64,000 bases of DNA from Gymnogyps californianus. Its lineage: Eukaryota; Chordata; Aves; Accipitriformes; Cathartidae. The translations under genes and the position numbers were made by a program. This document shows positions 1 to 35,876 of the stretch, piece after piece. How positions within the stretch are numbered: position 1 is the stretch's first letter; each line of letters starts with the position of its first letter. The DNA is taken from contig NW_026114235.1 of assembly GCF_018139145.2 (NCBI RefSeq), positions 124,001 to 188,000 of the forward strand, in the 5' to 3' direction. Below the pieces are notes generated by a model. That model made no database searches. It saw only the letters and a program-made list of their open reading frames with translations, and was not told the DNA's origin.

Positions 1-669
1 ACTCTTCCAGCCTGTCCAGGTCTCTCTGTAAGATGGCTCTCCCTTCTGACATGTCTACCTCACCATCGAGTTTGGTGGTCAACAGCAAACATGGTGAGGG
101 TGCTTTCAATCCCATTGTCCAGATCATTTATGAAGATGTTGAACAACATGGAGCCCAGTATCGATCCCTGGGGGACCCCACTTGTGACAGGCTGCCAGCC
201 TGAGTAAAAACCAGTGGTCACCACCCTCTGAGTGCGGCCTGTTAGCCAATTTCCTACCCATCTTGCACACCACCCATCCAATCTGTATCTTGCCAGATTG
301 TCCAGGAGACGGCTGTGGGGAAACGGTGTCGAACACTTTGCTGAAGTCCAGGTAAACAACATCCACTGCTCTCCCCATGTTGACAGAAGAAGGTATTTTG
401 TTGTAGAAGGTGATCAGGTTAGTCTGGCATGATTTGCCCCTGGTAAATCCATGCTGGCTTTTCCCAATTACCTGCTTCATTTCCTTTGTAATAGTTTCTA
501 TGAGGACTCGTTCCATTACATTCCCAGGGACTGAAGTAAGACTAAAGGGCCTGTAGTTTCCTGGGTTCTCTTTTGGGCCCTTCTTGTAGATGGATATGAC
601 ATTTGCCCTCGTTGTCAGGGATATCCCCTGATCTCCACGACTTTCCAAAGATTATAGACAGTGGCCTTC
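1..669 (-). mobile_element. CR1 LINE fragment, ORF2 reverse transcriptase (broken)
   Basis: This is the reverse transcriptase part of a CR1 non-LTR retrotransposon, the enzyme that copies element RNA into the genome at a nicked target. On the minus strand the reading is split between two frames (648 down to about 300, then 362 down to 60), so at least one frameshift is present. Visible RT blocks in order are [33 protein letters not shown], the catalytic-Asp block [12 protein letters not shown], and [21 protein letters not shown]. The second catalytic block, normally FADD, reads FAVD here, so a key Asp is lost. The endonuclease half expected upstream is missing: the sequence passes at 670 into an LTR mosaic and then straight to ORF1. 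The element is dead. The family call rests on the RT blocks and on the CR1-type ORF1 that follows in the same orientation. Confidence 0.9.
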
Positions 670-789
670 TGTGGTGGGTTTTCCTGGGCTGGCTGCCAGG
701 TGCCCACCAAGCTGCTCTATCACTCCCCCTCCTCAGCAGGACAGGGGGGAGAAAATAAGATGAAACACTCATGGGTTGAGATAAAGGCA
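670..789 (-). mobile_element. LTR family B, U5-end fragment, reverse
   Basis: It begins with TGTGGTGGG, the reverse complement of the family-B 3' terminus, and matches the last 120 bp of B copies such as 4230-4349. It is cut off at 789 by a family-A fragment. It faces a forward B end at 912-1013, so the two B pieces form short inverted arms. Confidence 0.75.
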
Positions 790-911
790 TGTCCTGGTTT
801 CAGCTGGGACAGAGTTAACTCTCTTCTTAGTAGCTGGTATAGTGCTGTGTTTTGGATTTAGTGTGAGAATAATGCTGATAACATGCTGATGTTTTAGTTG
901 TTGCTAAGTAG
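790..911 (+). mobile_element. LTR family A, 5' (U3) fragment
   Basis: It starts with TGTCCTGGTTTCAGCTGGGA, the family-A 5' terminus, and follows A to TTGTTGCTAAGTAG. It then switches abruptly to family B at 912. Only the first 122 bp of the LTR are present. Confidence 0.8.
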
Positions 912-1013
912 CCTTTCATTTTATTTTTTTTTCTCCCCTGTCCAGTTGAGGAGGGGGAGTGATAGAGCAGCTTTGGTGGGCACCTGGCATCTAGCCAGGG
1001 TCAACCCACCACA
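912..1013 (+). mobile_element. LTR family B, 3' (U5) fragment
   Basis: It matches the last 102 bp of family B and ends in CAACCCACCACA. Flanks (665-669 CCTTC, 1014-1018 AGGTT) do not match, so the block arose by rearrangement or deletion and not as one clean insertion. Confidence 0.75.
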
Positions 1014-1685
1014 AGGTTTCACAGCTGTGGACCCTACCCCCCCCAAGTTCATTAGTTTAAAGCACGATTCACTAAATCAGCCAATCTGATAGAAAAGATT
1101 CTCCTGCCTCTTCTAGATAGGTAGATATCATGTCTTCCCAATAGGGTTTATTCGTCAAAGAACATCCCATTATCATAGAAACCAAAGCCCTGGTAATGAC
1201 ACCAGCCATGAAGCCAGATGTTGATCTGTGTGATGCGTCAACTGCTGCCCACACCCCTATCTCTGACTGGCAAGACAGAGGAGAAGATCACTTGGGCACC
1301 TGTCCCCTTCACTTGTGCCCCCGGGGCTCTGAAGTCCTGCTTGATCTTGCCCAGGTTTTGCTTTACCGTGTCATTGGTGCCCACATGGAAAAGAAGTAGA
1401 GGACAGTAGTCTCTGCTTTTTACCAGTTGTGGAAGTCTCTCTGTGACATCCCAGATCTTGGCTCCTGGCAAGCAGCAAACTTCCCTTGACTGTATATCAG
1501 GCTGGCAGATGGGTGCCTCAGTGCCTCTTAGCAAAGAGTCACCCACTACTAGCACTCGCTGCTTCCTTTTGCAGCTTTTAGTATGTGCTGCTGGTGCAGT
1601 TTCTCCCTGTGAGTCTTGCTCATTGGTTTTGTCCGCTGCCAAGACTTCATATCTGTTGCTGGTTGATACATACGAGGAAGGGGAC
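1014..1685 (-). mobile_element. CR1 ORF1 segment with SGNH/GDSL esterase-like domain
   Basis: This is the middle of the CR1 first open reading frame, which in many CR1-clade elements carries an esterase-like SGNH-hydrolase domain of uncertain role in retrotransposition. On the minus strand a frame of about 134 codons runs from 1642 to 1238. It shows RVLVVGDSLLRG (block I with the nucleophile Ser) and LLFHVGTNDT (the GTND block). A stop follows the VGSS at 1238, but recognisable CR1 sequence goes on to about 1080 with further stops. The final catalytic Asp-x-x-His region is degraded, reading DMISTYLEEAGE where family members have an Asp/His motif. A solo LTR at 1686-2284 separates this segment from the N-terminal part at 2285-2431. 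Confidence 0.88.
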
Positions 1686-2284
1686 TGTCCCGGTTTTGGC
1701 TGAGATGATAGAGTTAATTTTCTTCCTAGTAGCTGGTATAGTGCAGTGTTTTGGATTTAGTAGGAAAAGAATGTTGATAACACACTGATGTTTTTAGTTG
1801 TTGCTAAGTAGTGTTTATACTAAGTCAAGGATTTCTCAGCTTCTCGTGCCCAGCCAGCAAGAAGGCTGGAGGGGCACAAGAAGCTGGGAGGGGACACAGC
1901 CAGGACAGCTGACCCAAACTGGCCAAAGGAATATTCCATACCATATGATGTCATGCCCAGTATATAAACTGGGGGGAGCTGGCCGGGAGGGGCCGATCGC
2001 TGCTTGGGGACTGGCTGAGCATCAGTCAGCGGGTGGTGAGCAATTGCATTGTGCATCACTTGTCTTTTTTGGGTTATATTTCACTCTCTTTTTGTTATCT
2101 TCCTTTTCATTACTATTATTATTATTACTATATTATATTTTTATTTCAATTATTAAACTGTTCTTATCTCAACCCACGAGTTTTACTTGTTTTCGATTCT
2201 CCTCCCCATCCCACCAGGGGGAGGGGGAGGAGTGAGTGAGCGGCTGCGTGATGCTTAGTTGCTGGCTGGGGTTAAACCACGACA
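1686..2284 (+). mobile_element. Complete solo LTR, family A
   Basis: A 599-bp LTR with TG...CA ends (TGTCCCGGTTTTGGCTGAGA to GGTTAAACCACGACA). It is flanked by a perfect 5-bp target duplication GGGAC (1681-1685 and 2285-2289). A TATA box TATATAAA lies at 1961-1968, and an ATTAAA-type polyadenylation signal near 2150 precedes the conserved TTATCTCAACCCACGAG block. No internal retroviral sequence is attached, so it is a solo LTR left by LTR-LTR recombination. It sits inside CR1 ORF1, and the CR1 reading resumes after it. Confidence 0.93.
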
Positions 2285-2431
2285 GGGACTGAAGTGATAT
2301 CCTGTTCCCACCATAGCGCCTCCTTCACCAAGGTGCTGTCTGTTTGCTGTTGAAGCTCTTTGTCTGGTAGTCCTTGGAGGTCAGTGCCACAGGGCCCTAG
2401 TATTTCTTCTTGCAAAGTCTCAAATAATACT
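2285..2431 (-). mobile_element. CR1 ORF1, upstream segment between two LTR insertions
   Basis: The minus-strand translation (about 2431 down to 2290) is glutamine- and glutamate-rich (LFETLQEEILGPCGTDLQGL, then KELQQQTDSTLV). It leads into the esterase-bearing segment on the far side of the 1686-2284 LTR. It is bounded on both sides by LTRs with intact target duplications, so the pre-insertion CR1 order is clear. Confidence 0.75.
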
Positions 2432-3020
2432 TGTGGTTTAACCCAAGCCGGCAACTAAGCACCACACAGTTGCTCACTCACTCCCCCCCTGCCCAGTGGG
2501 ATGAGGGAGAGAATCGGAAGTGTAAAAGTGAGAAAACTTGTGGGTTGAGATAAAAACAGTTTAATAATTGGGAAAAAAAAAAAAAACCAAATTGTAAGGA
2601 AAAGGAAAATAACAAAGAGAGAGAAATAAAACCCAAGAAAGAGAAGTGATGCAAATGAAAAAATTGCTCACCACCAACCTACTGATGCCCAGCCAGTCCC
2701 TGAGCAGCACCCCACCCCCCACCAACCTCCTCCCGAGTTTTATTGCTGAGCATGATGTCACATGGTATGGAATATCCCTTTGGTCAGTTGGGGTCAGCTG
2801 TCCCAGCTGTGTCCCCTCCCAACTTCTTGTGCACCCCCAGCCTACTCGCTGGCGGGGTGGTGTGAGAAGCAGAAAAGGCCTTGACTCTGTGTAAGCACTG
2901 CTCAGCAATAACTAAAACATCCCTTGTATTATCAACACTGTTTCCAGCACAAATCCAAAACATAGCCCCATACTAGCTACTATGAAGAAAGTTAACTCTA
3001 TCCCAGCCAAAACCAGCACA
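2432..3020 (-). mobile_element. Complete solo LTR, family A variant, reverse
   Basis: A 589-bp LTR in reverse orientation, starting TGTGGTTTAACCCAAGCCGG and ending CAGCCAAAACCAGCACA. It is flanked by a perfect 5-bp target duplication ATACT (2427-2431 and 3021-3025). Read on the minus strand it has the family-A layout. The U3/R differs from the 1686 copy and resembles the truncated copy at 37350-37803. Confidence 0.92.
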
Positions 3021-3274
3021 ATACTCTATTTCTTGTTCACCCTCCCTAATACAGAGAAGCTTGCTAACTTTCTCCTGCAGATTCTCCACCTGCTGCCTGA
3101 ATGACTCCACCAGAGCACACCTCCCACAGGTGGAGCTTCCATAAAATAAAATAAAATAAAATAAAATAAAATAAAATAAAATAAAATAAAATAAAAGACT
3201 GGGTCGGAGTCCCTCACGCTACAAGGCTGCAGAACAAGCCCTAAAATGTCTGGGGTGAGGGGAACTTTAGAGGG
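3021..3274 (-). mobile_element. CR1 5' region
   Basis: CR1 ORF1/5' sequence resumes after the ATACT duplication. The minus strand contains ESFRQQVENLQEKVSKL, the coiled-coil-like start typical of CR1 ORF1. It includes an (AAAAT)n tract at 3141-3197 and then GC-rich sequence up to the LTR at 3275. Confidence 0.7.
3141..3197. repeat. (AAAAT)n microsatellite
   Basis: About eleven tandem 5-bp ATAAA units, uninterrupted, inside the CR1 5' region. Confidence 0.97.
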
Positions 3275-4349
3275 TGTATTGGGTTTACATGGCAAGGTTT
3301 GGGGGGTGGGGGGGAGCTGCAGTGGTGGCTTCTGTGAGAAGATGCCAGAAGCTGCCCTCATGTCGGACAGAGCCAGTTCCAGCCAGCTCCAAGATGGACC
3401 TGCTGCTGGCCAAAGCTGAGCCAATCAGCAACGGTGGTAGTGCCTCTGTGATAACATATTTAAGAAGGGATAAAAAACACTGCGCAACAGCATCTAGGAG
3501 AGAGGAGTGAGAAGATGTGAGAGAAACAACTCTGCAGACACCAAGGTTAGTGAAGAAGGAGGGGGAGGAGGTGCTCCAGGCACAGTATCAGAGATTCCCC
3601 TGCAGCCCGTGGTGAAGACCATGGTGATGCAGGTTGTCCCCCTGCAGCCCATGGAGGTGCACGGTGGAGCAGATATCCACTCTGCAGCCCATGGAGGACT
3701 CCACACCGGAGCAGGTGGATGTGCCCTGAAGGAGGCTGTGACCCCGTGGAGAGCCCGCACTGGAGCAGGCTCCTGGCAGGACCTGCGGCCCCATGGAGAG
3801 GAGCCCACGCTGGAGCAGGTTTTCTGGCAGGATCTGTGGCCCCACGGGGGACCCACGCTGGAGGAGTTTGTGAAGAACTGCAGCCCGTAGGAAGGTTCCA
3901 TGCTGGAGAAGATTGTGAAGGACTATCTCCTGTGGGAGGGTTCCCATATTGGAGCAGGGGAACAGTGTGAGGAGGAAGGAGTGGCAGAGATGAAGCGTTA
4001 TGAACTGACTGCAACCTCCATTCCGCATCTGCTGCACTGCTCGTGGGGAGGAGATAGAGAAGTCGGGAATGAAGTTGAGCCCAGGAGGAAGGGAGGGGTG
4101 GGGGGTAGGTGTTTTTAGTTTTGTTCTTGTTTCGCATTATCCTACTCTGATTTGATTGGCAATAAATTAAATTAATTTCCCCAAGTCAAGTCTGTTTTGC
4201 CAGTGATGGTAATTGGTAATTGATCTCCCTGTCCTTATCTCAACCCATGAGCTTTTTGTCATAATTTCTCCACCTTGTCCCATTGAGGTGGGGGAGTGAT
4301 AGAGCAGCTTGGTGGGCACCTGGCAGCTAGCCAAGGTCAACCCACCACA
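3275..4349 (+). mobile_element. Complete solo LTR, family B (about 1.1 kb)
   Basis: The LTR runs from TGTATTGGGTTTACATGGCA to GGTCAACCCACCACA, 1075 bp. The flanks GAGGG (3270-3274) and GAAGG (4350-4354) are a 5-bp target duplication with one mismatch. Order: U3 with a TATA-like TAACATATTTAAGAAGGG near 3460, then a long repetitive block (about 3600-3960) of imperfect units built on CTGGAGCAG / TGGAGAAG, then AATAAATTAAA and the R/U5 end. The repetitive block is open in several frames on both strands. I treat those frames as by-products of the repeat and not as genes. Confidence 0.9.
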
Positions 4350-4785
4350 GAAGGTGAAAGGGAGCCAAAAGGGCGGTGGTGGGGTTAGGAAAAAGTTGGA
4401 AAATGCCCAAGGGTGATGAACCCCTCCAATAAGGCCCACCAAGGGGCCCCCGTTTTAAATCCTGTCACATACTGACAAGAGACCAATCCTGTGAGCTGGA
4501 ATGAGAGGTCCCTGCATCCAGGCACAGCTCAACAGGATGACCTTACAGTGTTACTGGGGCAGATTTTGGGCTTTGCAAGGTACTGCAGGACACAGGCAAC
4601 ACTGTCCACAAAAATGGAAAACCAGAACAAAATAACTACTTCAGAAGAACATATGTGTGGGGACAATAAGGAAAAGACTTGAAGGGGATCCCATAAAATG
4701 CCACATGAAATAGAAGAACAAGCTAATGGGCCCATGAACTACAAACTGGATTTCGAAGTCAGTGTCACTTGGACATGTTTCCAAG
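4350..4785. other. Unassigned stretch between LTR B and the virus-like gene block
   Basis: No clear gene. A plus-strand frame of about 63 codons (4491-4682) matches nothing I know. The stretch could be the degraded upstream part of the Polinton-like fragment, or the CR1 flank into which the LTR inserted. Confidence 0.4.
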
Positions 4786-5061
4786 ATTGTCATGGACAAG
4801 TTGGAGACACTGGCAAATCAGGAGGGCTCCAGACTTTCTTATATTCACAGAAAAAGCCTTAAAAGAAAGAGACCCATGTCACACCCCTGGAGGGAAGGCC
4901 CGCCCCAGCCCTTCAAAAGAGAAAGGAAGTGAGGTGCCAAACAGCCATCTGGCCAGGACAAGAAGAGAAAGAATCACAAGCCAGGCCAAACAATGCAAAA
5001 GAAACAGAAAACTCAGAGAAAGAGGGCCCGTTCTACCACTAGAAAAGGAAATCTATTTTAA
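4786..5061 (+). pseudogene. Basic-tailed protein, 3' part, directly upstream of capsid-like gene (decayed)
   Basis: A plus-strand frame is open from at least 4738 to 4932, broken by one TGA (4930-4932), and open again to a TAA at 5059-5061, five bases before the ATG of the capsid-like gene. The first part includes the helix-like stretch IVMDKLETLANQEGSRLSY. The last 42 codons are extremely basic (15 Lys/Arg, for example KKRKNHK and QKKQKTQRKRARSTTRK), as expected of a nucleic-acid-binding or nuclear-targeted virion protein. The tight head-to-tail spacing to the next gene is what makes it a credible gene remnant. I do not recognise a family. It could be a core or minor virion protein of the same Polinton-like element. 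The start is not identifiable. Confidence 0.5.
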
Positions 5062-5066
5062 AAGGG

Positions 5067-6377
5067 ATGGCTTTTGTTCATGGCTGCTCAGAGGAATGTA
5101 CTAAATCCGAGTTGGATTTGTTTAAAGTATCTCTGACACAGACCAGCATTGAGAAAAGCCTGTTTGAGGTGCCTCCACTTTCTGCTATTGTAGAGTCTGC
5201 ATCTCTGGACTTTTTCTTAGCTGGGAATGGGGAAGACTACATAGATCTGAACAACACCCTGCTGTACCTTTGCTGCAAGATTGTAAAAGCTGACAGATCC
5301 AACCTTGGTGACAGCGAGGACGTGGGTCTCGTGAATTACCCACTGACCTTTCTTTTCAGCCAGCTGAACTTTATGCTGGGGATGGACTGATAAGCCAGAG
5401 CAACAACTGTTACCCCTATCACACCTTCATTGATTTGCTTCTCAATTACAGCCATGACATGCTGTCCACGCATTTCTCCATGGGGCTGTTCTACAAAGAC
5501 ACAGTCAGGCAAGCAGGAAGCAGTCATGCTGGATGACATCGGTAATCGGGGTTTAGTAAACGCTCAGCTCTGATGGCCCAGAGTTAGGAGCACTGAACTA
5601 TTGGGACCCCTCCACCATAATCTATTCTTTCAAGACAAGCTTTTGTCGAATGGTGTGGATGTAAAAGTTAAGCTTAGGTACAGCTGAAACAGCTTTTGTT
5701 TAATGAGCTCCCTGGCAGCAGGAGCCTGCAAGCTGGTTATTACCTATGCCTCACTGTTTGTGAAGAAGGTGTGGGTGGCACCTGGAGTGCATATGGGACA
5801 CTCTGAGGCATTACTTATGGCTAACACTAAATACCCGGTAGACCAGATGGGCATGAAAGCGTTCAGCATACTGGCCGGCAGTCATGTCAGCAACCAGGAA
5901 AATTTGCTTCTGGGCCAGCTACCCTAGCTTGTTGTTATTGGGTTCATAGATAACAACGCTTCTAGTGGTGATTATGCTAAGAACCTTTTCAACCTTAAAC
6001 ATTATGATAGAAATTTTGTGGCCCTGCATGTGGATGGTGAACAAATGCCAGCAAAACCTCTGCAGCCTGATTTTGAGAATGGCTGCTCTGTGAGAGAATA
6101 CATACAGCTTGTTCAGACGATCGGCAGCCATATGAAAGACCATTCCCTGCTAGTTGACAGGGAAGAGTTTGCCCGTGGCTATACCCTGTTCACCTTTGAC
6201 CTGTCTCCAGATGAAGAATGTGCTGATCACTATTCCCTGATCAAAACAGGAAACTTGAGAGAAGAAGGACACTTTGCAGGGGCCTTGACCACCACTGTTA
6301 ATATGATTGTGTACAGCGTGTTTGACAATGTGATAGAAACAAACCGGCAGACACACGTGCTCTTCAACTACATGTGA
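5067..6377 (+). pseudogene. Polinton/Maverick (adintovirus-like) major capsid protein, pseudogene
   Basis: Virion shell protein of the double jelly-roll type used by Polinton/Maverick elements and adintoviruses. In animal genomes relatives are often auto-annotated as 'F54H12.2-like'. That identification is from memory and the family look of the whole chain. The gene starts at ATG 5067 and ends at TGA 6375-6377, about 437 codons, a plausible full length. Recognisable blocks in order: CTKSELDLFKV near the N-terminus, AGNGEDYIDLNNTLLYL, VGLVNYPLTFLFSQ, then YASLFVKKVWVAPG, NQENLLLGQLP, AKPLQPDFENGC, GYTLFTFDLSPDEECADHYS and the C-terminal LFNYM. Breaks: frame slips at about 5380 and again between about 5510 and 5540 that cancel each other, and in-frame stops at 5571, 5685 and 5925. 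There is no poly(A) tail. It sits between a basic-tailed remnant and a protease remnant, all in one direction, so it is a piece of viral or transposon DNA and not a retrocopy. Confidence 0.78.
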
Positions 6378-6379
6378 GG

Positions 6380-6751
6380 ATGGACACCAAACAACTCTCT
6401 TGGGTTTTTTCAGCAGACTCCTACACCAGAAAAACATTCCTAGGCATTTACCCAAGTGACTGGCTCCCTAGGGCCCATGTTTCTCCAAGACCAGCAAGCT
6501 TGCCTGTGAATATGCATCCATAGAACCAGCCTGGAGAGCACAGTCTAGAAATTTTCCTAGCAGATCAGAACCACACAGAGCTTTTTGACTCATATGGCTA
6601 TCCTCCAAACAGTGCTCTCTTTCCTGAAATTGTCATGTCCTTTTTAAAACTGGAAAAAATGGAATACAATTTAGATCAGGTCAAAAGAAAAACATTTATT
6701 ACTATAGGTATAGGAGAGAACACAGACCAACAGAGAAATGGACTCTGCTGA
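6380..6751 (+). pseudogene. Adenain-like cysteine protease (Polinton PRO), truncated pseudogene
   Basis: Maturation protease of the adenovirus/Polinton type, which cleaves virion proteins during assembly. The ATG at 6380 lies two bases after the capsid stop. The frame begins MDTKQLSW, followed by YTRKTFLGIYPSDWLP, the kind of N-terminal block seen in these proteases. After one in-frame TAG (6521-6523) comes a His block (QPGEHSLEIFLAD) and then the hallmark ELFDSYGYPPNS, matching the catalytic His and Asp regions. The expected downstream Cys block is not recognisable: similarity fades after about 6680 and the frame stops at 6749-6751. So the gene is truncated or its 3' part is decayed. The position right behind a capsid gene supports the call. 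Confidence 0.75.
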
Positions 6752-7217
6752 TGTGAACTCACGTGAACTGTGCTAATGTAAAAGACAAGGTGAAAAGGTG
6801 AAGGCTTATCCCTGTATAGATCCATCAATGCAAAAGGGAAAGGACGGCTGCTGGTGAAGCAGTGTGGATGGCCCTAAAAATTTAACAAATAGAAGCCTCC
6901 CAAGTCAAGGAAATCTAGTGATTGGAAGTAGAGTAGGGGGAAAAAGGATGTCAGATGGTGGTTTTCTACATCACGCAACCCAGCATTGCTAGAACCAGAA
7001 TCATCCCATAAAACACCAGCTCAAATTTTACCATACAGCTGGTGAGGCCCTTGGAGCACTTAGGCAGGAGGGAAGTGGGGTTGGCACATTTTCTTCAACT
7101 GGGCATGTAGCACATATTCTGGGGGCTTCTCTGGGGGTTGCTGCTAAAAAAATTCCCTTTGTGGTGTAGATTGCTGAACTTGCTCTACCTCTACATGGAT
7201 CTTGTAGAGCACCAACT
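6752..7217. other. Unassigned sequence 3' of the protease remnant
   Basis: No open frame or repeat recognised. It may hold further decayed Polinton sequence. Confidence 0.4.
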
Positions 7218-8216
7218 TGTCAGGGACTTTTATCTATGGAAATGTAACCAGTAGATAACAAAGTATAACTAAAACTTTAACTATAGGATATTCTGTAACA
7301 AAAGATAAGGAAATTTCTCAAGGCACAGACAAAAAGGGTGCCTGGAAGCTGTGAGAGCAAATCAGAAGAAGAGAAGACCCCAGACTCCACAAACAGGATT
7401 GGATGAGCAGAAGTGCCATCAGGAAATCAGGCAACCTATAGATGTTGCAAATTAATGGCTTTTTGTTTTGGTTTGAAACAATTAACTATAGAAACTTCAC
7501 TAGAAATTAATGGCTTTTTTGTTTTGTTTTAAGAAACCACAGTGAATGATAGTCTGCTTTGTTAACGGTCCATGAAGGACCGCTTAGTGTTGCCAAGTTT
7601 AAGTGAAACTAGGGGAAAGGTAATTTCGGCAGGGGGAGATCACGACCACTGACTCATAGACCACCGACTCAAGAAACCCACCGACCCAAAAAGGTTAAGG
7701 AAGTAAAGGTCTCAAAAATCATAGTGGGCATGCGTAGTAATTTACATGGTAGGCGAAGAAATTTTAACCAATCATTTAATAGAATAACAATGAATATGTA
7801 TTGAATGATTAAATATGTTAACATCTCATGTATAAAAAGTGATGGATTTTGATGTGAAGGTGAACACGGTTTGGCGGAGCTATCCCCTGTGTTCCCAGCG
7901 CTGAATTAAAGGAGTGCCTGCTTATCTGCATCTCATTGGTGTTGATAAGTTCTTTCCGTCTCATTTGGTAACATAGAGACTATAAAATCCGGTAACAATC
8001 GGCAGGCGGGGTCCCTCTTTGGAGGCACCCAGCTCAAGCTGGTGCTGGTGCAAGTGTATATAAGGAATCGGATGGTGATGCATCTTTGCAGACTCCCTGT
8101 AGAACCACTTTTGGCCATAGGACTCTGTCCAACACATTGTTCATTAAATCTTTTTATATTTAAGCACAAACGTGAGTTTAATTTGCCTCAAGGGGTACAA
8201 TAAAAATTCCCTAACA
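7218..8216 (+). mobile_element. LTR family C, split by an inserted LTR D
   Basis: The first part (7218-7442) matches 30229-30450. The second part (7974-8216) begins with a block matching 30445-30500 (GACTATAAAATC..., GGCAGG.GGGTCCCTCTT). It ends with a TTAAATC/AATAAA-containing region and CCCTAACA. The 5' limit is approximate. The centre is occupied by LTR D with a clear target duplication, so C was there first. Confidence 0.7.
7443..7973 (+). mobile_element. Complete solo LTR, family D, nested in LTR C
   Basis: A 531-bp LTR with ends TGTTGCAAATTAATGG...CATTTGGTAACA. The 4-bp target duplication TAGA flanks it exactly (7439-7442 and 7974-7977). Removing it and one TAGA restores the C sequence seen at 30445. 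It has a TATA-like TGTATAAAAAG near 7830 and AATTAAA near 7905. A 4-bp duplication suggests a gammaretrovirus-like (ERV1) integrase. Confidence 0.88.
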
Positions 8217-8667
8217 CTGTAAGTTGATTGGGATATCTATTTTCACACACCTTTTAGGAGATTGGTTTAAAAAAGGAAAATATCAGAGTACTTTGAGATT
8301 TAAAAGTATGTGATGAAATTATATAAATCCAGTGATTTCCCCAAATTCATCAGTCTGTCATTTACACTGATGCTTTCAGTAACAGTTTCTTTTTCCAGGT
8401 TAGCTGCAATTATACAATGTAATATCTATCTGTGATTCTAAAAAGAAATGTTCATTTGCACTGATTTGAATGCTATACTGAAATAACTCCCACATATCTT
8501 GCAGTTATTAATTGCTCCCTCTTTTACCTTTTCATGATGACAATCCACAAAATTATTATCTAAGCCTCTAGTCTAACCCACACCCGGTTTCCTTCAGCCA
8601 TGAATCAAGCCTGTGGCTTTGGCTTGTTTATCCAATACTGATGCTAGTTATCCCAAACAAGCCATTT
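8217..8667. other. AT-rich non-coding sequence
   Basis: Nothing recognised. Confidence 0.6.
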
Positions 8668-9241
8668 TGTAATAAGTAAGCTGTCACACACATAAAGTAA
8701 TCTTATCTTGTATATATAGAGAGGATTACAAAAGGACGGCTGATCACTTCAGGATGTTCTGAAGGCCAGTATATCTGGTGCATCTTGAAGGAGGACGCAA
8801 ACAGACAGTAGTTAATCAACATTACTTAGATAACTTTGAAACAGACTCAGCAGTATTGTGGAGTTAAGTTACCCTTTAACGAACTGTCTCATTAGAATAC
8901 TTAGAATCACACCCACAAACCTAGAAACCCCTTCCTCACAGAAGCCCCTTCCTCTCTGAGAATGCCTGGTAGAAAAAGGAAACTCTGTACCTTTAAATGA
9001 AACCGAAGACTACCGGGACCAATAAGAATCTTGAAAGATTACATGTAAACAGTATTGTCCTGGTAACGAATGGTCAAACAGTATAAAAATGTCCACCGTG
9101 TGTTAACTGGGTGTGCTAGCTTTGTGGAATTACCACCTAGCACCCATCTTTGTGCAAACATGAAATAAATATCTCGGCTCTGTGTGTGAGATGATTGGAT
9201 TATTGCACACCAGGTAAAAGAACCCCGATTTTGGGACAACA
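8668..9241 (+). mobile_element. LTR family E, copy 1
   Basis: Near-identical to 27413-27977 across its whole length (a few substitutions plus small indels). Ends TGTAAT...GGGACAACA. It has CAGTATAAAAATG as a TATA-like element near 9080 and GAAATAAATATCTCGGCTC as a polyadenylation/R region near 9162. Flanks (ATTT and ATAC) do not match. The right side is joined to a truncated LTR B, suggesting later rearrangement. Confidence 0.85.
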
Positions 9242-9264
9242 ATACCAGATTCAGATACTAAATA

Positions 9265-9629
9265 CCTGCTCCACCGTGGTCTTTTCCACAAGCTGCAAGG
9301 GAACCTCCGCTCTGGCGCTTGGAGCACCTCCTCCCCTTCCTTCTTCTCTGACCTTGGTGATTGCAGGATTATTTCTCACTTTTCTTCCTCACTTCTCATA
9401 CTGCTGTGCAGCGTTGTTTACCCTTTCTTAAAAATGTTTTCACAGAGGCGCCACCAGCTTCCCTGATTGGCTCAGCTTTGGCCTGCAGTGGGTGTGTTGT
9501 GGAGCTGGCTGGAGCTGGCTGGAACTGGCTGTGTTCAGCACGGGGCAGTCCCTGGCCTCTTCTCACAGAGGCCACCCCTGCAGCCCCCCCCACCCCCGCT
9601 ACCAAAACCTTGCACGTAAACCCAGTACA
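9265..9629 (-). mobile_element. LTR family B, U3 fragment, reverse
   Basis: It ends TTGCACGTAAACCCAGTACA, the reverse complement of the B 5' terminus, and runs back through the TATA-proximal region into the start of the repeat block. The U3 repeats, R and U5 are missing. Confidence 0.8.
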
Positions 9630-10161
9630 GACAGCATGCCTGTCTTCATTTGACAACAAATTTGAAAGATCAGCATAAAATATATAAAATCAATAGAAGT
9701 ATAGAATCAGTGATGCTCACTTTTTTCAAATGGCTGATAATTCAAATAAAAATAAATCATTCCATTTGAGGAGCTCTCCCCTCAACACTTCTGATCCATG
9801 TAGCCAGCATCTTACTGTATGCCCTTCCTTCACATGATATATTGTAAGCAGTTTGAGAGTCCAGTAGCTTTTTCCTCATTCTCAAAGATGTGTCTATGAA
9901 CTTCTCTGTGGGAAAATATCTAATGACTAAGAAGCATATTAGCTAATACAGACTGAAGCAGTATCTCCATTACTACTAAAATAATAACTTCTGAAGATAC
10001 AGGGTGATCAGGTGTAACAACCCAGCCTCTGTACACAGGTGGGAGCACATTATGTAAATTAGCAGTAACTGTTGCCTCTACTGCAATTAACTTTAAAACA
10101 TCCTGATACCAGGTTAGCCTGCATGTATGTATGTATTTATATATTTTATATACACACACAC
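9630..10161. other. AT-rich non-coding sequence
   Basis: Nothing recognised except a short TATG/TA/CA simple tract (about 10121-10161) just before LTR F. Confidence 0.6.
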
Positions 10162-10746
10162 TGTATTGGGTCTAGCTGAGATGGAGCTAATTTTCCCCAT
10201 AGCAGCCCTCATAGTGCTGTGCTCTGTATTGGTAGCTAGAAAGGTGTGGAAAACACACCAGGGTTTTGGCTACTGCTGAGCAGTGATCCCACAGCATCAA
10301 GGCTGTCTCTCCAACATTGCCCCCCCCTCACCAGTAGGCTGGGGGGTGGGCAAGATCTTGGGAGGGGACATAGCCAGGACAGCTGACCCAAACTGACCAA
10401 AGGGATATTCCATACCATATGTCGTCTGCTCAGCAATAAAAGCTAGGAGGAGGAGGAAGGGGGGGCATTTGTTATTTACGTTTGTCTTCCAGTGCAACCG
10501 CTATGCGTACTGAAGCCCTGCTTCCCGGGAAGTGGCCAGACATCGCCTACTGATGAGAAGTAGAGAATAAAATCTTTTGTTTTTCTTTGCTTTTGCATGT
10601 GACCTTTGTTTTTGCTTTATTAAACTGTCCTTATCTCGACCCACGAGCCTTTCGTTATATTTTCTCTCCCCTGTCCAATTGAGGAGGGGGAGTGATAGAG
10701 CAGCTTTGGTGGGCACCTGGCATCCAGCCAGGGTCAACCCACCGCA
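10162..10746 (+). mobile_element. Complete solo LTR, family F
   Basis: A 585-bp LTR from TGTATTGGGTCTAGCTGAGA to GGTCAACCCACCGCA. The 5-bp flanks CACAC (10157-10161 and 10747-10751) match, although within a CA-rich tract. U3 differs from B, while the last ~120 bp (TTATCTCGACCCACGAG to the end) are clearly those of family B, so F looks like a U3/U5 recombinant of related lineages. Confidence 0.88.
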
Positions 10747-10784
10747 CACACCCATACACATACCCACATACATTTATATGCATA

Positions 10785-11898
10785 TGTATTGGGTTTGCGT
10801 GGCAAGGTTTTGGTAGCAGGGGGGCTACAGGGGTGGCGTCTGTGAGAAGCTGCTAGAAGCTTCCCCCATGTCCGATAGAGCCAATGCCAGCTGGCTCCAA
10901 GACAGACCCGCCGCTGGCCAAGGCCGAGCCAATCAGCAACAGTGGTAGCGCCTCTGGGATAACATATTTAAGAAGGGGGGAAAAAGTCCAAACCTGCACA
11001 ACAGCAATTGCAGCCGGAGAGAGGAGTGAGAAGATGAGAGAGAAACAACTCTGCAGACACCAAGGTCAGGGAAGAAGGAGGGGGAGGAGGTGCTCCAGAC
11101 GCCGGAGCAGAGATTCCTCTGCAGCCTGTGGTGAAGACCATGGTGAGGCAGGCTGTCCCCCTGCAGCCCATGGAGGTTAATGGTGGAGTAGATATCCACC
11201 TGCAGCCTGTGGAGGACCCCACGCCGGAGCAGGTGGATGCCCGAAGGACGCTGTGACCCCGTGGGAAGCCTGCACTGGAGCAGGGTCCTGGCAGGACCTG
11301 TGGACTTGTGGCCCCATGGAGAGAGGAGCCCACGCTGGAGCAGGTTTGCTGGCAGGACCTGCAGCCCGGTGGGGGACCCACGCTGGAGCAGTTCATGAAG
11401 AACTGTAGCCTGTGGGAAGGACTCACCTTGGAGAAGTTTGTGGAGGATTGTTTCCCGTGGGAGGGACCCCATGCTGGAGCAGGGGAAGAGTGTGAGGAGT
11501 CCTCCCCCTGAGGAGGAAGGAGTGGCAGAGACAATATGTGATGAACTGACCCAAACCCCCATTCCCCGTCCCCCTGTGCTGCTCAGGGGGGAGGAGGTAG
11601 AGAATTTGGGAGTAAAGTTGAGCCTGGGAAGAAGGGAGGGGTGAGGGGAAGGTGTTTTTAAGATTTGGTTTTATTTCTCATTATCGTACTCTGACTTTTG
11701 ACTGGTAATAAATTAAACTAATTTCCCCAAGTCGAGTCTGTTTTGCCCGTGACGGTAATTGGTGAATGATCTCTCCCTGTCCTTATCTTGACCCACGAGC
11801 CTTTCATTTTATTTTCTCTCCCCTGTCCAGCTGAGGAGGGGGAGTGATAGAGCGGCTTTGGTGGGCACCTGGCATCCAGCCAGGGTCAACCCACCATA
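10785..11898 (+). mobile_element. Complete solo LTR, family B
   Basis: 1114 bp, TGTATTGGGTTTGCGTGGCA to CAACCCACCATA (final CA mutated to TA). Flanks GCATA (10780-10784) and ACATA (11899-11903) are a 5-bp duplication with one mismatch. The U3 repeat block (about 11080-11510) gives plus-strand repeats such as GPTLEQFMKNCSLWEG / LTLEKFVEDCFPWEGP and a 209-codon open frame on the minus strand. A TATA-like TAACATATTTAAGAAGGG lies near 10960. Confidence 0.9.
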
Positions 11899-12970
11899 AC
11901 ATATATACATTTTTATATAAATAAATAAAGGAAAGAATAAATAAATAAATGGTGTCTACATTATTTATTAGACTTTTCACATGCTTTGGAGTTCACATAC
12001 TATGAATTCTGTAATGTCATGCAATACTTATTACATTGCTCAGCCACAACCACATTGCTCAGAACATCGTCCTTGCCCTGAAGGTTGAGAGAAAGCAAAG
12101 ATTTAACAAGGCAGAGCACAAGTGTTCTGATCTCAGGCCAGTGGTGCCCCTTGGATAGATCTCTCAATTAATATCAAAGTACATGACAAAATGTATCACT
12201 CTGCTCCCTGATGTCTCAGTGCTTCCTTTTTCTGCTTGTATATTCCTATAAACCACTGGAAGGTTTAAAACCAGACAGAATATTTCTACTGCTAGCAAGA
12301 CTATCTACAGTTAGTGCAAAAGTTTTGAAAGAAAAATAAACTATGCATTATATAATTTAGAAAAGTAAATTGGAAACCACAAGACAGTAAATATGCAGAT
12401 TGTCTCACATCTAAATATGGATTTTTTCACCTTCCTCCCAAGAGCATCTAGTATTGGCATCTGTTTGGAACAGAACACTGAACCAGATGGAACACAGATG
12501 TGATGCTGCATGGCTAGGCACGTATTACTTGGTGAGGGAGGAGAAAAACACAAATTTGTTTCTAAAATTAGATGATGAGTTCATCAGTGAACCAAGTTAA
12601 GGAATTCTGTCTTTAAAATGGGAATTGGAATAAGTATGCTCTTTTAAAATTGAAATCTAGTGCAAAGTATTAGGTTTTATTTTATTTTATTTTTTATTAT
12701 ATTATTATAGGATTCAGAACCCCTGGCATACTGTTGAGTTCTCTATTTTGCATACATATGTATACCCATGCTAACCTAGACAACCTGTATTACCTTAGGC
12801 TGTTTAGCTTAATGCTGTTTGTCTCCATGTCAATACATTTTTCCACTAGCAACATGTTTCAAGACTTACACCTCATAGTCCAAGGTGAAGTGAAAAGCAA
12901 ACTTTAAAGATGTGTTTTTGAGGCAGATTTTTATTCTCTCACATTTCCTAACAATTTGTATCCTCCTGTA
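11899..12970. other. AT-rich non-coding sequence
   Basis: Starts with an AAATAAAT tract (about 11918-11952). Otherwise nothing recognised. Confidence 0.6.
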
Positions 12971-13758
12971 TGTATTGGGCATAATTGGCAGGGTTTTGGT
13001 AGCAGGTGGGGCTGCAGGGGTGACCTCTGTAGGAGGTCAGGGACTGCTCTGTGCCAGTCACAGCCAGCTCCAGCCAGCTTGGCAAGGGACAAAACGGACC
13101 CACTGTGCACCAAAACTGAACCAATCAGACAAGTTTGTGGCACCTCTGCGAAAACATATTTAAGAAAGGGTGGTAAACGCCAAGACAAAGAGACAACAAT
13201 GTCAGATCAGGAGGAGGAAAAAGAGAAAACAATGCCAGAGCAGAAGGAGACACAAGAGAATGCCAGAGCAGGAGGGACAGTAGAGAAGGAGAAATGCCGA
13301 AGCAAAACTAGCCGCTCTGAGCAAGGGCTGGAGCTGAATAGCAGTCCAAGCAAGGGCTGGAGCCAAATAACTGCCTGGGCAGGGACTGAGAGGAGACTGA
13401 GGAGGAGGTACAACTCTAAAGGGACTGTGGCCAGTGGAGGAACCCATGGCAGAGTAATTGAGCAAGAAACAAGGAGCAGCAAAAGGAACCACAATGCACT
13501 GACCCCAATCTCCTGCACCACCTGCCTCTTCACCTAAGGGACTGAGTGTAAAGTGCAGTGAGGGGATTGGAAACCAGGAAGGTGGAAGAAGAGGTGTCCA
13601 GAGGGAAGCTGAGGTGTTTCTCTCTAAGTGTGTGTTTATTTGTTTTATTATTATTATTATTTTTCAAGACCATAATCAGCAATTAAATTTTGTTAATTGG
13701 CTATAAATTAAATTGATTGAAATTCCTCTACTCGAAACTGTTTTTCTTTCCCACAACA
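12971..13758 (+). mobile_element. LTR family G (B-related), probable solo LTR
   Basis: It starts TGTATTGGGCATAATTGGCA and shares the B 5' organisation (GGTTTTGGTAGCAGG, GCCAGCTCCAGCCAGCT, AAAACATATTTAAGAAAGG). The repeat block is replaced by GAG/CAG-rich sequence. It has TTAAATTGATTG and CTCGAAACTG near the end and closes with CCACAACA. Flanks CTGTA and CCCTA do not match, so the 3' limit is less certain. A 193-codon plus-strand frame (12956-13537) lies inside it. It is Glu/Lys/Gln-rich and probably fortuitous. Confidence 0.75.
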
Positions 13759-16700
13759 CCCTATTATCCAGAAAATAACAACAATCACCTCCTAGTTCAT
13801 TTATAGCCAGTGGCAGTCCTCTATGGAGCCAAGAGAAATGAGTTATTTTTAATATTTTAGGAAAAGTATTTCAGAACACAAGAAAATCACTTATGATTAG
13901 ACTGGTACTTGGAAAGCTTATGGAGAAATCTTTTCTGACATCTGTTTCATTAGAAACTTAAGCAACTTATTAAAACAACCCACATCTTTGTATAAAAGCT
14001 TGTTTGTGCAGCAAGGTTTCTTGTGAATCATGATTAAAATTCCTCTTTGTTCTCTACATCATACACACAATTTTGTAGCATGCACCCACATACAACATTT
14101 CTTTGGAAGAAGAGCCCGTGGAGAAAACAGTTACCATAGCAACATTTTTGTATTCTCAAATGTTATCATACTACATTTTTTTTCATTTTAGGCTTTTGTA
14201 GACTGCAAATGCCATCTTTCCTCATTCAAGCTGTCAGTTAATTTCTCAAACTTTGTTCAGGATTACTTTCATTTTGTGATGGAAACCCTTGGCATTAAAT
14301 TATGGGCTGCTCTACCACTATTTTAACTCAGACAATGGTTGCAAGATTCAGGTGCTCAGAAGTTGGCTTTCAAATTTATTATAAAGTCATTTGCCTTCAA
14401 AAACTGATATTTTTCCTTGCTACTGATGAGGGTTCAGAAACCTCTTTCCTGATTCTGAAACAGACTTACAAATAAGCTTGAGTAGATCTCAGAAGTTGTC
14501 TATGTCTGCACCTTTATAAGGTATGAATCGGGGGGGGGGGGGGAGTACTGAGAGATTTTAAAGTATTTTAGGAGGCTGCAATTTTAATCTTAATTTACTG
14601 ATCTGATTTACTAATATTACTAACTTAGGCACATACATAAGCCTATTGAGTTGCTAAATTGATTGATGAAAGAGTTATCAAAGCTTTGATTCTGTGATAA
14701 ATTACCTTTCTGTGTTCTATATTTAGCAGTAATAGTGAAGCCTCAGGTACAGTTCCATGGACTGTAGTAACACTCACCATATCCAAATCATAAGACATTA
14801 GGAGAGCAGAAATGAAGAGAAAGAAAAGGAATAGTTGGGTAAAAGAATACATTAACAGAATGATTAAATAGCAATGTGGATTTCATGACTGTTCTGTCCA
14901 AGGTCCAACAACTGGAAAATATCTTCTGCTTCATGACCTTTTCTGCCAGGACTTCATGTTCTCCTGGCTCTGTCTTCTTCACCCACCAGAGACCCACAGC
15001 TAGTAATTATCAGAGGAAGACCAACAATGATCTTGGACTCAATATGCCGGGGGGGGAGGTATGACATACTAGCCAGGACTATACGCATGGAATTATCTCT
15101 CTGAGATCACTGAACACAGGAGCTCACATTTTCTTCCAGTCTTTTGCAGAATGACCTTATGATCCCAGAGAGGCTGAGCTCAGACTGATATCCCAGGATC
15201 AGACTGCCCAGTCACCAGAACAGCTCAGAATATTTCCAGTTGTCTAGCAGGAAAAGCATATAGGGCAGATTCTTGGAAATCATGCATGAATCTGTACCTT
15301 CTACTCATCTAAGGCCACATGGGATACAGTCCCTGGCTGTAGTTTCAAATAGTGGTATACACAATGTATTTTAGTCAGCTCAAAGTTTGTACAGAGTTCA
15401 AGCTTGCAAGGCTTAAAGGTCACTGTTTTATGTACTTGTATGTGTGCACACTCAAATTATTGTAACTGCAGAGAAATCACATGTAGGTCCAATTCTGGCC
15501 CATACCAATTTGTCCCTATTCATACTACCCGACATATCCTGCAGGCACAAGCAGCATTTCCTCAGGAGTAAAAAGCCAGGCATTTATAAGATTTGCTTGG
15601 GGGTTTTTTTGTTTGTTCATTTCTTGGTTGACAGCTAGTCAGTCAATTCAATATTTCTTCCTTTATCTAGCCAAAGTCCAGCTGCACCATTCCAGAATGA
15701 GATTTCATTGGAGTTTAACCATTGCTACCCACAGACATCCTAAATTTGAAGTGCTCATATAATCTCCTCCTCTGATAAGGAAGTCTGCATTTTTGGGGGA
15801 ATTTCCAAAGCCTGAATTTTACTTGGAAGTCTTATAGGTCTAATAGAAGTCATCACTGGCTTCCTCGACACTTAGCATCATCTAGCATTGTGTTCAGCTG
15901 CTGTAGTATAACCAGTGTCACGTGACTAGGTTATTCCCTACCCCCAGATAGCAGTTTAGCAAATCTATACTCCATTTTACCACCCGACATTCTTTCTCAA
16001 TCAATGAATGTACTTTCCTTGGGAATAGCTTTCTGTGTTTGAACAAGATGCGATGTTCCTTGCACACAAAACTGAATTTACTCAGTTATTATCACAAGCA
16101 CATTATATTGAAGTGTAGGTGATCATCATTATTTTTTCGGCAAATAACTGCAAGTAAAACAACACTATTTCTGTTGTCTGGGGCCAATTTTTTCTTTGCC
16201 TATACTGCAGAACTGCTGTTTGAACACTAACAAGATAAAAGATGAAAGTCTTATTGATATAGTATTTAAAATTAGAAGGGTTAAAAATCATTGATCTTCT
16301 AAACTCAGTGCTATACAGTTCAGTCAGTATATACATAAAATATACAGAGCTCCATCAAAGGCATTTAATTTTCACATGCTAGTGACTTGCTGAAAGCTTA
16401 GCAGTTCTCCTGAACAGCTATCCATTTGAGATCTTTAAATTTCTCTCCCACAGAACATATTCACTATTAATTTGGACTACACTTGTCATATTCCTAGACT
16501 TTATACCATCTACCCAGGCTTTAAATATAGAATCTTTCCATTAGTAATACTGCTCTGAGAATCTAGGTCATAATACCTAAAATAACCAAAAAAAAGTATA
16601 TTACATTCTTTATAAATAACATGAAGACTTAAACATAGATTTTTAGTCTTCAAAGATCATTAAGAAAAAGTAGATATTACTAGATAAATTACATATGCAA

Positions 16701-18445
16701 TATTAGGCATTAGATTTATAATAAATAGTAGAAAAAACATTTCCTCTAATTCTTTCTTCCTAAAATTTTGAGATATTCCCCAAGAAAAAAAGCTTGATCC
16801 ATTAGAAGTCATTATTTCCAAGATCTGTCTCTTGCATGCACCAACATGTCAAAGGGCCAAAAGGGTCCAGAAATGCACTCTCAAATTCCAGTCCCTCTAG
16901 CAATTGAAGCCCTTTGCCTAAGGCTTTGGGAATATTCATTTTTTTAGGACCAATTACAGAAGTGTAGAAGAGACCCTACATTTGAGGAGGTGAGGTGGGG
17001 GAAAGAAGGAAGGAGTTGGGAAAGCTGGAGTGAAGTCTTCAGTACCCTCAAACCACTGATTTCTCTTGATAATTATTTCACTTGCTGAGATGAAAAGCAA
17101 TGAAAGTTATTTTTACTTATGCACTTTTTTTGATCATTAGCCAATTTTAAAACACTAATAGCATCTTATGTCAGTACTAATGCAACTGGAAGGACTTGCA
17201 ACAACAGGGTCACATTTTACCATTCATGTTTCTGTCTCATATATACTTCAGCAGAAATTAACCATGTCACTGCTATAGTAATTAGAGCAGTGATCATCAA
17301 GTCTGAAAAAACCCCTACTATTATTTTACAAGCAATTTAATCTGGTCAGCTATCTATTTACATTAGGTCTTAATGTTTTTTTTCATGGTCCTCTTTTGTC
17401 AGCTCCTGCTGACTTTAGAGAATCAACATTGAAGACTGCAGTTCAGTTTATGGATACAAGCCAATTCTAAACAACTTAGTGTTAAACAGCAGTTTATCCA
17501 TATGCAGACATGATCAACCAAACCCCTTCAGAATCATGTATTTATTTGGAATATTCTCTTATAGAATGTTACAGCCATTTTCCTGACATCAAGCAGAACA
17601 GAAACTGAAAGCATTTCTGATTGGAAAGAGAGAAATAGTCAAAGATACCATTGGTTGTACACCTTAAGAAATCACACAAATTTTTGCAAACATCTGAAGG
17701 GATTTAACTGAGGAATTCCAGATTATTTATTGTGTATCAAAAAGTGAGCATCTGTTCTTTTTCAAAAAGTAAGCAAACATGAGGTCTTCCCCCCATTATT
17801 TTACTATCCATATTGAGAAATTATAAATACATTAACGAATATAAAATTATCTCCAGTAAGATATTATGATTAATGCATTTCACTTTCCTAATGCAGCAAA
17901 ACTAGGAAAATGTAAACATCTCTACATTTTGAAAGCTACCAAATGTTAGAGCAACAATTTTCAGTTATGAATGAGTCTTTAACACATTCCCTGGTTTTCA
18001 TCATACAAAAGGACCATGAGGATATTGCTCAACTATGATGATGATTATAAACATGAAAGCTTTTTTCCCTTTTTTTAGAAAAGGAAAAATCTTTTAAGAC
18101 TGTGATACTTACTTAAACTCATCTGACATTCTAATGAATCCTGCACAGAAATACAAATCAAAGGTAATAAGAACAATTTGGAAAATCTTCAAAATAGTTC
18201 ACATATTTTTTTCCCAGTTTATTGATTTAGCTGAGGAATGCTCCATTAATACATCCCATACCTCCAAAAGACAATGACATTAACTACAATACAATTCTGA
18301 TTTACAGAACAGCATCTGAAGGATCTGTGTCTTTCAATAAAAAAAAGGAAACTGAACAAGTCCATGAAAAATGCCATGTCTTATTACAACAAGTAATAAT
18401 GCAAGTCTATGTCAGCAAAGCATGAAAAGTTATAGTTTATACAAC
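13759..18445. other. AT-rich non-coding sequence (4.7 kb)
   Basis: No frame longer than about 80 codons, no LTR and no LINE recognised. A poly-G run stands at 14530-14543. It is consistent with intron or intergenic DNA. Confidence 0.6.
14530..14543. repeat. Poly-G run
   Basis: Fourteen consecutive G in an AT-rich context. Confidence 0.95.
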
Positions 18446-18696
18446 TGTATTGGGTTTACGTGACAAGGTTTTGGTAATGGGGGGCTGCAGGGGTGGCTTC
18501 TGTGAGAAGATGCCAGAAGCTGCCCCCATGTCGGACAGAGCCAGTTCCAGCCAGCTCCAAGATGGACCTGCCGCTGGCCAAAGCTGAGCCAATCAGCGAT
18601 GTTGGTAGCACCTCTGTGATAACAAATTTGAGAAAGGGTAAAAAACACTGCGCAACAGCAGCTGGGAGAGAGGAGTGACAAAAATGGGAGAAACGT
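18446..18696 (+). mobile_element. LTR family B, 5' U3 fragment
   Basis: It matches the first ~250 bp of the 3275 copy more closely than the 10785 copy (GATGCCAGAAGCTGCCCCCA). It stops after GGAGTGACAAAAATGGGAGA, before the repeat block. Confidence 0.85.
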
Positions 18697-19549
18697 ATAT
18701 TATTTAAAAAGAATATTCATTTAGTGTTTCCAGGAGCCTCTCCTGCACACAATCTCTACTGCATAATCAAACTTTGAAGTTACAACAGTGAAAATAACTG
18801 TTAGGTTGCTGTCGATTGTTTGTGTATGAGCAACAGCTGAGATTAAACAGCTTGTGCTGTTTATATTCCTTGATCTGTTGTTTATTATTTCAATGTATGT
18901 GATTCCTTCATTCTGTCCTAAGGAATTACAGTTTGAAATAGGACATTTTTTTTTAATTTTTTTTCATGTTGTATGTCCTCATGGAACTCAAAGGCCAGGC
19001 TAAGTACAGAATGAAGTTTTAAGCAAAATTTTAACAAGCATTCAAACTGTAGGCCCTTATCAAAAGTGCTAGCTAAGCTTTCAGATGCTCATAGGTGAAT
19101 TGAGGGAATTGTTCTCCAGAGCATCATTGGAAATGTTGCTGTTTCTCATAGCTTCATAACAAGTCTTGCACAATATAATGCATCTTCTTAAAGTGAAAGC
19201 TTTATTTTGTGATAGCCAGAATATCAGCTGTCATTTAAAAATTTAAGTTCTGGACATTAATGGGTGCCAGAAAAGCTTGAAAATATGAACTAAGCTCACT
19301 AACCAGAGGAGAGTTTAGAAGAATTTAAAATTAAAAACCAATAAAAATACATATCATCCTGTGTGAATACAGAAAATTCACCTTATTCTTTCCTCCTCTA
19401 CCTTGCTTTTGCATTGCCTATTTTAATTATAAGTCCAATGGTTCTTTACTAATGGGTTTGCCCAGCAGAGCATGTCTGTGTTACTACAATACAATTATAT
19501 CCTGTAGCTTTTGTACGCATATCTCTGATCAATCTATTGTGAATATTGC
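18697..19549. other. AT-rich non-coding sequence
   Basis: Nothing recognised. Confidence 0.6.
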
Positions 19550-20200
19550 TGTGGTGGGTTGACCTTGGCTGGCTGCCAGACACCCACCCAGCCACTCTCT
19601 CACTCCCACTCCTCAACAGGACAGGGGGAGAAAATGAGATGAAAAAGCTTGTGGGTTGAGATAAAGACAGGGAGATCACTTGTCAATTACCATCATGGAA
19701 AAAACAGACTCAACTTGGGGAAAATTCATTTAATTTATTGTCAATTAAAACACATTTGGAAAGTGAGAAACAATCATTAAAACAACACCTTCCCCACCAC
19801 CCCCTTTTCCCAGGTTCAACTTCCCTCCTTCATTCCCAACTCCTCTCCCCTGCTGAGTGGTGCAGGGGAGATGGGGGGGTTGTGGTCAGTTCAGAACAGT
19901 CCCTCTCTGACACTCCTTCCTCTTCACACTTTTCCCCTGCTCCAGCATGGGTCCTTCTCCATGTGCCACAGTCCTTCAGGAAAAAATTCTGCTGCAGTGT
20001 AGGTTCTCCAGGGGCCACAATTCCTTCAGGAAATATCTAACTGCTCCAGCTTAGGGTCCTCCATGAGGAAGGGGGAGGAGGTGCTCCAGGAGCCGGAGTA
20101 GATATTCCTCAGCAACCCATGGGAGAGACCACGGCAGAACAGACCATGGCTACAGAATACTGCAGCCCATGGAGGTCACCCCTGCATCCCTCCCCCACTA
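19550..20200 (-). mobile_element. Mosaic of LTR family B pieces
   Basis: From 19550 (TGTGGTGGGTTGACCTTGGC) to about 20062 the sequence is a divergent B 3' half in reverse. At about 20066 it flips to forward B U3 sequence (GGAAGGGGGAGGAGGTGCTC, the same block as 20692) and runs to about 20200. The inversion point lies within the repeat block. This is a second, more decayed case of opposed B arms in the window. Confidence 0.65.
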
Positions 20201-20406
20201 TGAAAACTGTTAAGGGATGTTAAGAGCAGCAGCGGCTTCCAGCAGCTCTGGCCCAGGACTCCCTCCTGCCCAGCTGCTGGAGCCCAGCTCAGTGCCCCCA
20301 GGGTCTCTGCCCAGGCTGAGGGACACAGCTGCTGCTTTCCCGTTTGCAGGTTCAACCAGTAGAGAAGCTGAGCACATATCCCAGAGACACAAACACATGC
20401 GCATAC

Positions 20407-21538
20407 TGTATTGGGTTTGCGTGGCAAGGTTTTGGTAGCAGGGGGGCTACAGGGGTGGCTTCTGTGAGAAGCTGCTAGAAGCTTCCCCTATGTCCGATAA
20501 AGTTAATGCCAGCGGGTTCCAAGACAGACCCGCCGCTGGCCAAGGCCGAGTCAATCAGCAACAGTGGTAGCGCCTCTGGGATAACATATTTAAGAAAGGG
20601 AAAAGAAGTTACAGGGGAGTAGCAGTTGCAGCCAGAGAGAGCGGAGTGAGAAGATGTGAGAGAAACAACTCTGCAGACACCAAGGTCAGGGAAGAAGGAG
20701 GGGGAGGAGGTGCTCCAGGCGCCGGAGCAGAGACATTCCCCTGCAGCCCGTGGTGAAGACCATGGTGAGGCAGGCTGTCCCCCTGCAGCCCATGGAGGTC
20801 CACGGTGGAGCAGATATCCACCTGCAGCCCGTGGAGGACCCCACGCTGGAGCAGGTGGATGCCCGAAGGATGCTGTGACCCCGTGGGAAGCCCGCGCTGG
20901 AGCAGGCTCCTGGCAGGACCTGTGGACCCATGGCCCCGTGGAGAGAGGAGCCCATGCTGAAGCAGGTTTGCTGGCAGGACTTGTGACCCTGTGGGGGACC
21001 TACGCTGGAGCAGTCTGTTCCTGAAGGACTGCACCCCGTGGATGGGACCCATGCTGGAGCAGTTCATGAAGAACTGCAGCCCATGGGAAGGACTCATGTT
21101 GGAGAAGTTCGTGAAGGACTGTCTCCTGTGGGAGGGACCCCACACTGGAGCAGGGGAAGAGTGTGAGGAGTCCTCCCCCTGAGGAGGAAGGAGCGGCAGA
21201 AACAACATGTGATGAACTGACCGCAACCCCCATTCCCCATCCCCCTGCGCCGCTCAGGGGAGAGGAGGTAGAGAAAATAAGGAGTAAAGTTAAGCCTGGA
21301 AAGAAGGGAGGGGTGGGGGGAAGGTGTTTTAAGATTTGGTTTTATTTCTCATTATCCTGCTCTAATTTGACTAGTAATAAATTAAACATTTCCCCAAGTC
21401 GAGTCTGGTTTGCCCGTGATGGTAATTGGCGAGTGATCTCCCTGTCCTTATCTCTACCCATGAGCCTTTCGTTTTATTTTCTCCCCCTGTCCAGTTGAGG
21501 AGGGGGAGTGATAGAGCGGCTTTGGTGGGCACCTGGCA
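20407..21538 (+). mobile_element. Left arm: family-B LTR, forward, 3'-truncated
   Basis: Complete U3, repeat block and R, but it breaks off at GGTGGGCACCTGGCA, about 25 bp short of the normal LTR end, and passes into the spacer. Confidence 0.9.
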
Positions 21539-21718
21539 AATACAGTCCAATTTACGCACAATCCACCCCTCGTCCCTTCACCACAATTACAACAATCAAA
21601 ATTCCCCACGATCATTCTGCTTTCTAACATTATTCAGTCCATGTTTTGCCCGTTACCTCTCCCAATTACTATCCTCATCTCGAATTCCTCATGCCCCACG
21701 TTGGGCACCATAAAGGAC
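21539..21718 (-). other. Spacer with retroviral leader sequence
   Basis: On the minus strand it starts right after the 3' end of the right-arm LTR with the spacer GTCCTTTA and a primer-binding site. Some 150 bp of 5' untranslated leader follow. There is no coding sequence. Confidence 0.75.
21693..21710 (-). promoter_or_regulatory. Primer-binding site (tRNA-Lys type)
   Basis: The minus strand reads TGGTGCCCAACGTGGGGC, nine bases after the LTR terminus. It differs by one base from the site at 62962-62979. Confidence 0.8.
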
Positions 21719-27977: not shown

Positions 27978-27981
27978 ATAT

Positions 27982-35700: not shown

Positions 35701-35876
35701 ACTACACCCCAACAGAAAAAAGAGATACTAGCAGCATATGAGGGGGTTCGAGCCGCTTCAGAAGTTGTTGGTACAGAAGCATATCTCCTCTTGGCACCAC
35801 GATTGCCCATGCTACACTGGATGTTCAAAAGAAACAGCCCCTCTACACATCACGCAACCAGCACTACATGGAGTAA

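Follow-up and report, generated by a model that had tools for sequence, protein, structure and literature searches.

The window (the whole 64,000-nucleotide stretch of DNA analysed here) comes from a bird genome and holds what is very probably part of a decayed vertebrate Maverick (Polinton) element. Its major capsid gene is certain, and is likely preceded by a PW gene and followed by a protease gene. The three frames lie head to tail on the plus strand, between two dispersed LTR-like repeats:

3275..4350, plus strand: dispersed LTR-like repeat left of the remnant, with parts repeated near 10785 and 20407 (ends approximate)
4792..5061, plus strand: basic-tailed putative PW-gene frame containing a single in-frame stop (assigned by position)
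5067..6377, plus strand: decayed Maverick major capsid gene (phmmer, tblastn, and tree)
6380..6751, plus strand: putative protease-gene frame containing FDSYG and a single in-frame stop (assigned by position and openness)
7228..8034, plus strand: dispersed LTR-like repeat right of the remnant (window self-blastn; right end approximate)

Maverick fossils in birds have already been reported, and the window copy adds one more. The first-pass annotation of this DNA knew of no well-documented bird copies, but two papers (PMC8097293, PMC4992247) describe them from chicken, turkey, palaeognaths, penguins, owls, hummingbirds, and other birds. The bird copies known in print are all degraded, and the extinction of the lineage in birds and mammals has been called a mystery (PMC9683012).

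The capsid gene and its relatives

Read through its stops and shifts of frame, the sequence at 5067–6377 (437 codons including the stop) certainly encodes, by homology, a vertebrate Maverick major capsid protein, as had been proposed for a Polinton/Maverick capsid-like protein of about 437 codons. A phmmer search using the last 267 codons (5574–6374, with two in-frame stops as X) returned 198 protein matches, the best of which had an E-value of 3e-121 and 73% identity, and a tblastn search with P0001, the best relative, as the query aligned this protein from residue 3 to its end with positions 4980–6374 of the window (E = 9e-178). Frame openness was assessed by comparing stop counts to 2000 dinucleotide shuffles; the base frame of the capsid gene contains five stops compared to a shuffle mean of 23.9, and none of the shuffles was as open (0/2000). 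Besides the two in-frame stops, the gene is interrupted at ~5381–5573, where the reading continues in another frame and part of the sequence is unalignable.

Amongst the best 120 of the 198 matches, the names included turtles, a crocodilian (Gavialis), lizards, a snake, amphibians, the coelacanth, and ray-finned fishes, with no bird name. A tree based on 53 rows (the window copy and 52 of the 120 capsid proteins listed) paired the window capsid with P0011 from Gavialis gangeticus (99/82), and this pair joined P0001 and a second Gavialis gangeticus protein, P0035 (100/96), which makes these three the nearest to the window capsid in this tree. The sister group consisted of nine turtle copies at weaker support (92/79), with the remaining turtle copies placed elsewhere. 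Identity to the window capsid was 69%, 67%, and 73% for P0011, P0035, and P0001 (over 263, 257, and 265 columns, respectively); P0001 is uninterrupted over 467 residues, while the window copy is broken. The position beside Gavialis and turtle copies fits the published turtle-(crocodile, bird) grouping of Mavericks (PMC8097293).

Several other searches were negative. Sequence searches of the PDB matched no chain to a 49-row capsid profile and found nothing relevant for one capsid piece, single pieces had no match of weight in Pfam or PHROGs, and an Rfam search gave 0 matches. Scans of viral contigs, using a piece of the window and a capsid alignment built from 18 of the 120 relatives listed, likewise detected no relative.

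The neighbouring frames and competing explanations

The first frame ends 5 bases before the capsid frame, which is followed after 2 bases by the third, and on either side of the capsid gene a start codon occurs where one would be expected; the frames, spacing, and FDSYG block are as first described. Vertebrate Mavericks carry a single module in the order integrase, minor capsid, PW, capsid, and protease (PMC8097293), and the frame order and spacing seen here fit the PW, capsid, and protease portion of intact elements, with PW and protease matched by place only. The first-pass annotation had spoken of three decayed genes with one common origin. Of the three, homology establishes the capsid gene, and we infer the other two genes from their position; an origin in one morphogenesis block is likely. 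Openness exceeds chance for the third frame, for which the search found no homologue, and does not exceed it for the first.

The first frame (4792–5061) has one stop compared to a shuffle mean of 2.8, and 391/2000 shuffles were as open. An alternative frame of the same stretch has no stops, and a Pfam search of the first frame found no match. A set of 29 codons starting at 4980, in the frame of the capsid, resembles the residues that precede the capsid start in P0001 (9/29 identical), a level of resemblance reached in 1/20000 shuffles. When those 29 residues were used alone in a tblastn search, the place at 4980 was not significant (E = 1.6) and four other places in the window scored as high or higher. 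In the ungapped comparison, position 53078 on the minus strand also scored higher (34, compared to 30 at 4980), a match taken as chance since stops are frequent there and no capsid frame lies nearby. The match at 4980 may thus be weak support for common DNA at this point and does not identify PW. From its position, the first frame is likely the PW gene of the element.

The third frame (6380–6751) has one stop in 123 codons compared to a shuffle mean of 6.2, a degree of openness reached in 20/2000 shuffles for that frame and in 45/2000 for the best of three frames. It contains FDSYG, which we take to resemble a block found in adenain-type proteases. The adenain-like protease first proposed for this frame keeps its position, open frame, and motif, but gains no significant match in protein, PDB, or Pfam searches. 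The protein search, a method that requires shared 5-residue words, yielded four candidates, none of which was scored; a PDB search by sequence found no match; and the best Pfam match was to an unrelated DUF (E = 0.22). The catalytic end of the frame is not recognisable. Position, open frame, and short motif together suggest that this is likely the protease gene of the element. Profile searches had been put forward in the first-pass annotation as a check on all three frames; those of the neighbouring frames (Pfam) and of the capsid (PDB) left each without a profile match of weight, and the capsid assignment comes from the protein searches and the tree.

The capsid could instead be the sole survivor of its element, with the neighbouring frames representing chance open stretches or other DNA and no three-gene block, an explanation that we consider unlikely. 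In its favour, no homology was found for either neighbour and the openness of the putative PW frame is within chance, but the 5- and 2-base spacing, the start codons at their expected places, the openness of the third frame, and the motif resemblance of its FDSYG block all argue for a block. That an exogenous adintovirus-like virus integrated here, and the remnant is no copy from the vertebrate Maverick lineage, draws on the overlapping use of the names Maverick and adintovirus in print (PMC11089739), and is made very improbable by a capsid that falls inside a reptile genomic set, beside Gavialis and turtle copies, and by the lack of a relative in the scans of the viral contig collection.

Amongst the matches listed, the capsid relatives are mostly annotated as ‘uncharacterized protein F54H12.2-like’, a gene-like name that would suit a pseudogene descended from some ordinary family of host genes. 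This has hardly any probability: the family is multi-copy and patchy, with a single gecko (Heteronotia binoei) supplying 14 of the 120 relatives listed and birds missing by name from the best 120 of 198, and capsids of this kind have been published as Maverick genes without introns (PMC8097293). A decayed vertebrate Maverick fragment is the explanation retained here.

For such a fragment, germ-line entry of the ancestor would have been by its own integrase, as Mavericks do, and it would have carried the full module from integrase to protease in the order given in PMC8097293. Once constraint was lost, conserved sites would have been replaced and stops and shifts of frame would have accumulated, and the LTR-like repeats likely trimmed the element to at most ~2.9 kb. 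The remnant is predicted to make no protein today.

Decay and age of the capsid

Conserved columns were defined as those kept in ≥90% of 52 full-length relatives (425–451 residues, excluding P0001, P0011, and P0035). The window copy is changed at 27/173 of these columns (binomial 95% range, 10.5–21.9%) compared to 1/173 for P0001, which suggests that the capsid has likely been free of constraint for tens of millions of years. In a leave-one-out comparison amongst the 52 relatives, the median was 6/177 columns changed, and one relative, P0019 (Pelodiscus), was more changed than the window copy (40/173). If all of the change was free of constraint, the window value corresponds to 0.076–0.083 changes per site (transition weights 1 to 6), an estimate that the background of the median relative would lower; the 40 strictest columns alone (3/40 changed) give 0.035–0.038. 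A value of 0.08 predicts 2.2 to 3.3 in-frame stops, and two are present in the aligned pieces. At a neutral rate near 2 × 10−9 per site per year, a weak estimate, for which both rate and baseline are uncertain, places the likely loss of constraint on the capsid tens of millions of years ago (roughly 20–60 million years).

As only ~0.08 changes per site have occurred since the loss of constraint, it is conceivable, though doubtful, that Mavericks were alive in a neoavian lineage well into the Cenozoic, and that this copy derives from an element whose capsids still functioned when the crown-bird ancestor lay tens of millions of years in the past, and is not a relic broken since the Cretaceous. 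A capsid copy from the Neoaves that can be aligned over nearly its whole length offers a usable point for dating the loss of Mavericks by orthologous sites.

The broken state, the kind of capsid, and, by position, the place of the capsid in the gene order are shared with the defective bird Mavericks described by Barreat and Katzourakis 2021 (PMC8097293), while the copy here is a short fragment in which the capsid alone is confirmed. In chicken, interrupted Polinton frames, conserved in turkey, include an integrase and capsid on chromosome 2 and a polymerase on chromosomes 2 and Z (Guizard et al. 2016, PMC4992247). The capsid frame is interrupted there as here, but chromosome 2 retains integrase and polymerase pieces where none was detected in the 19.8 kb of flanks searched here, and chicken is a galliform whereas the host of the window copy is likely neoavian.

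Flanking repeats and the remainder of the window

The LTR-like repeats on both sides limit the remnant to at most ~2.9 kb. Parts of the right repeat (7228–7442 and 7973–8034) recur at 30231–30502 in a blastn of the window against itself. No convincing target-site duplications were found for the flanking repeats, and none of 5–6 bases was found for the right repeat. Remnants of pPolB, integrase, and ATPase had been suggested as targets for a search of the flanks, and no polymerase, integrase, or ATPase domain was detected by Pfam in six frames of positions 1–4802 and 6700–21701 (19.8 kb), a scan that did detect a decayed reverse transcriptase and that decayed pieces may escape. Amongst the 25 of 100 inverted pairs listed for positions 1–26000, no terminal inverted repeat was recognised, and the inverted repeats, as far as recognised, are dispersed LTR-like repeats. 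Two inverted 924-base LTR-like copies (20407–21330 and 21956–22879) are 96% alike and 625 bases apart.

A broken endogenous retrovirus occurs at 35007–36479 (RVT_1, E = 6.6e-15; RNase H, E = 4.8e-14). Its reverse transcriptase (35007–35450) has 644 relatives, of which the best 120 carry 111 bird names, eight without a name, and one Klebsiella record, in agreement with the avian-type genome first proposed. All 111 bird-named relatives amongst the matches listed belong to the Neoaves, and the host is thus a bird, likely neoavian. The Klebsiella record (P0212, from Klebsiella pneumoniae) shares 80% identity with the bird retroviral reverse transcriptase and likely reflects host contamination of the record.

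Other repeats are distributed across the window. To the right of the remnant, a 583-base repeat pair (8662–9244 and 27407–27980; 96.7% alike) represents a recent dispersed element. The left end of the window (60–1756, minus strand) contains reversed non-LTR pieces, broken up by other dispersed repeats and including a decayed reverse transcriptase, from an element that we take to be CR1-type. A perfect (ATAAA)n array of 11 copies is located at 3141–3196, and a tandem repeat with 30- and 90-base periods (~7.5 copies of 30) at 63672–63906.
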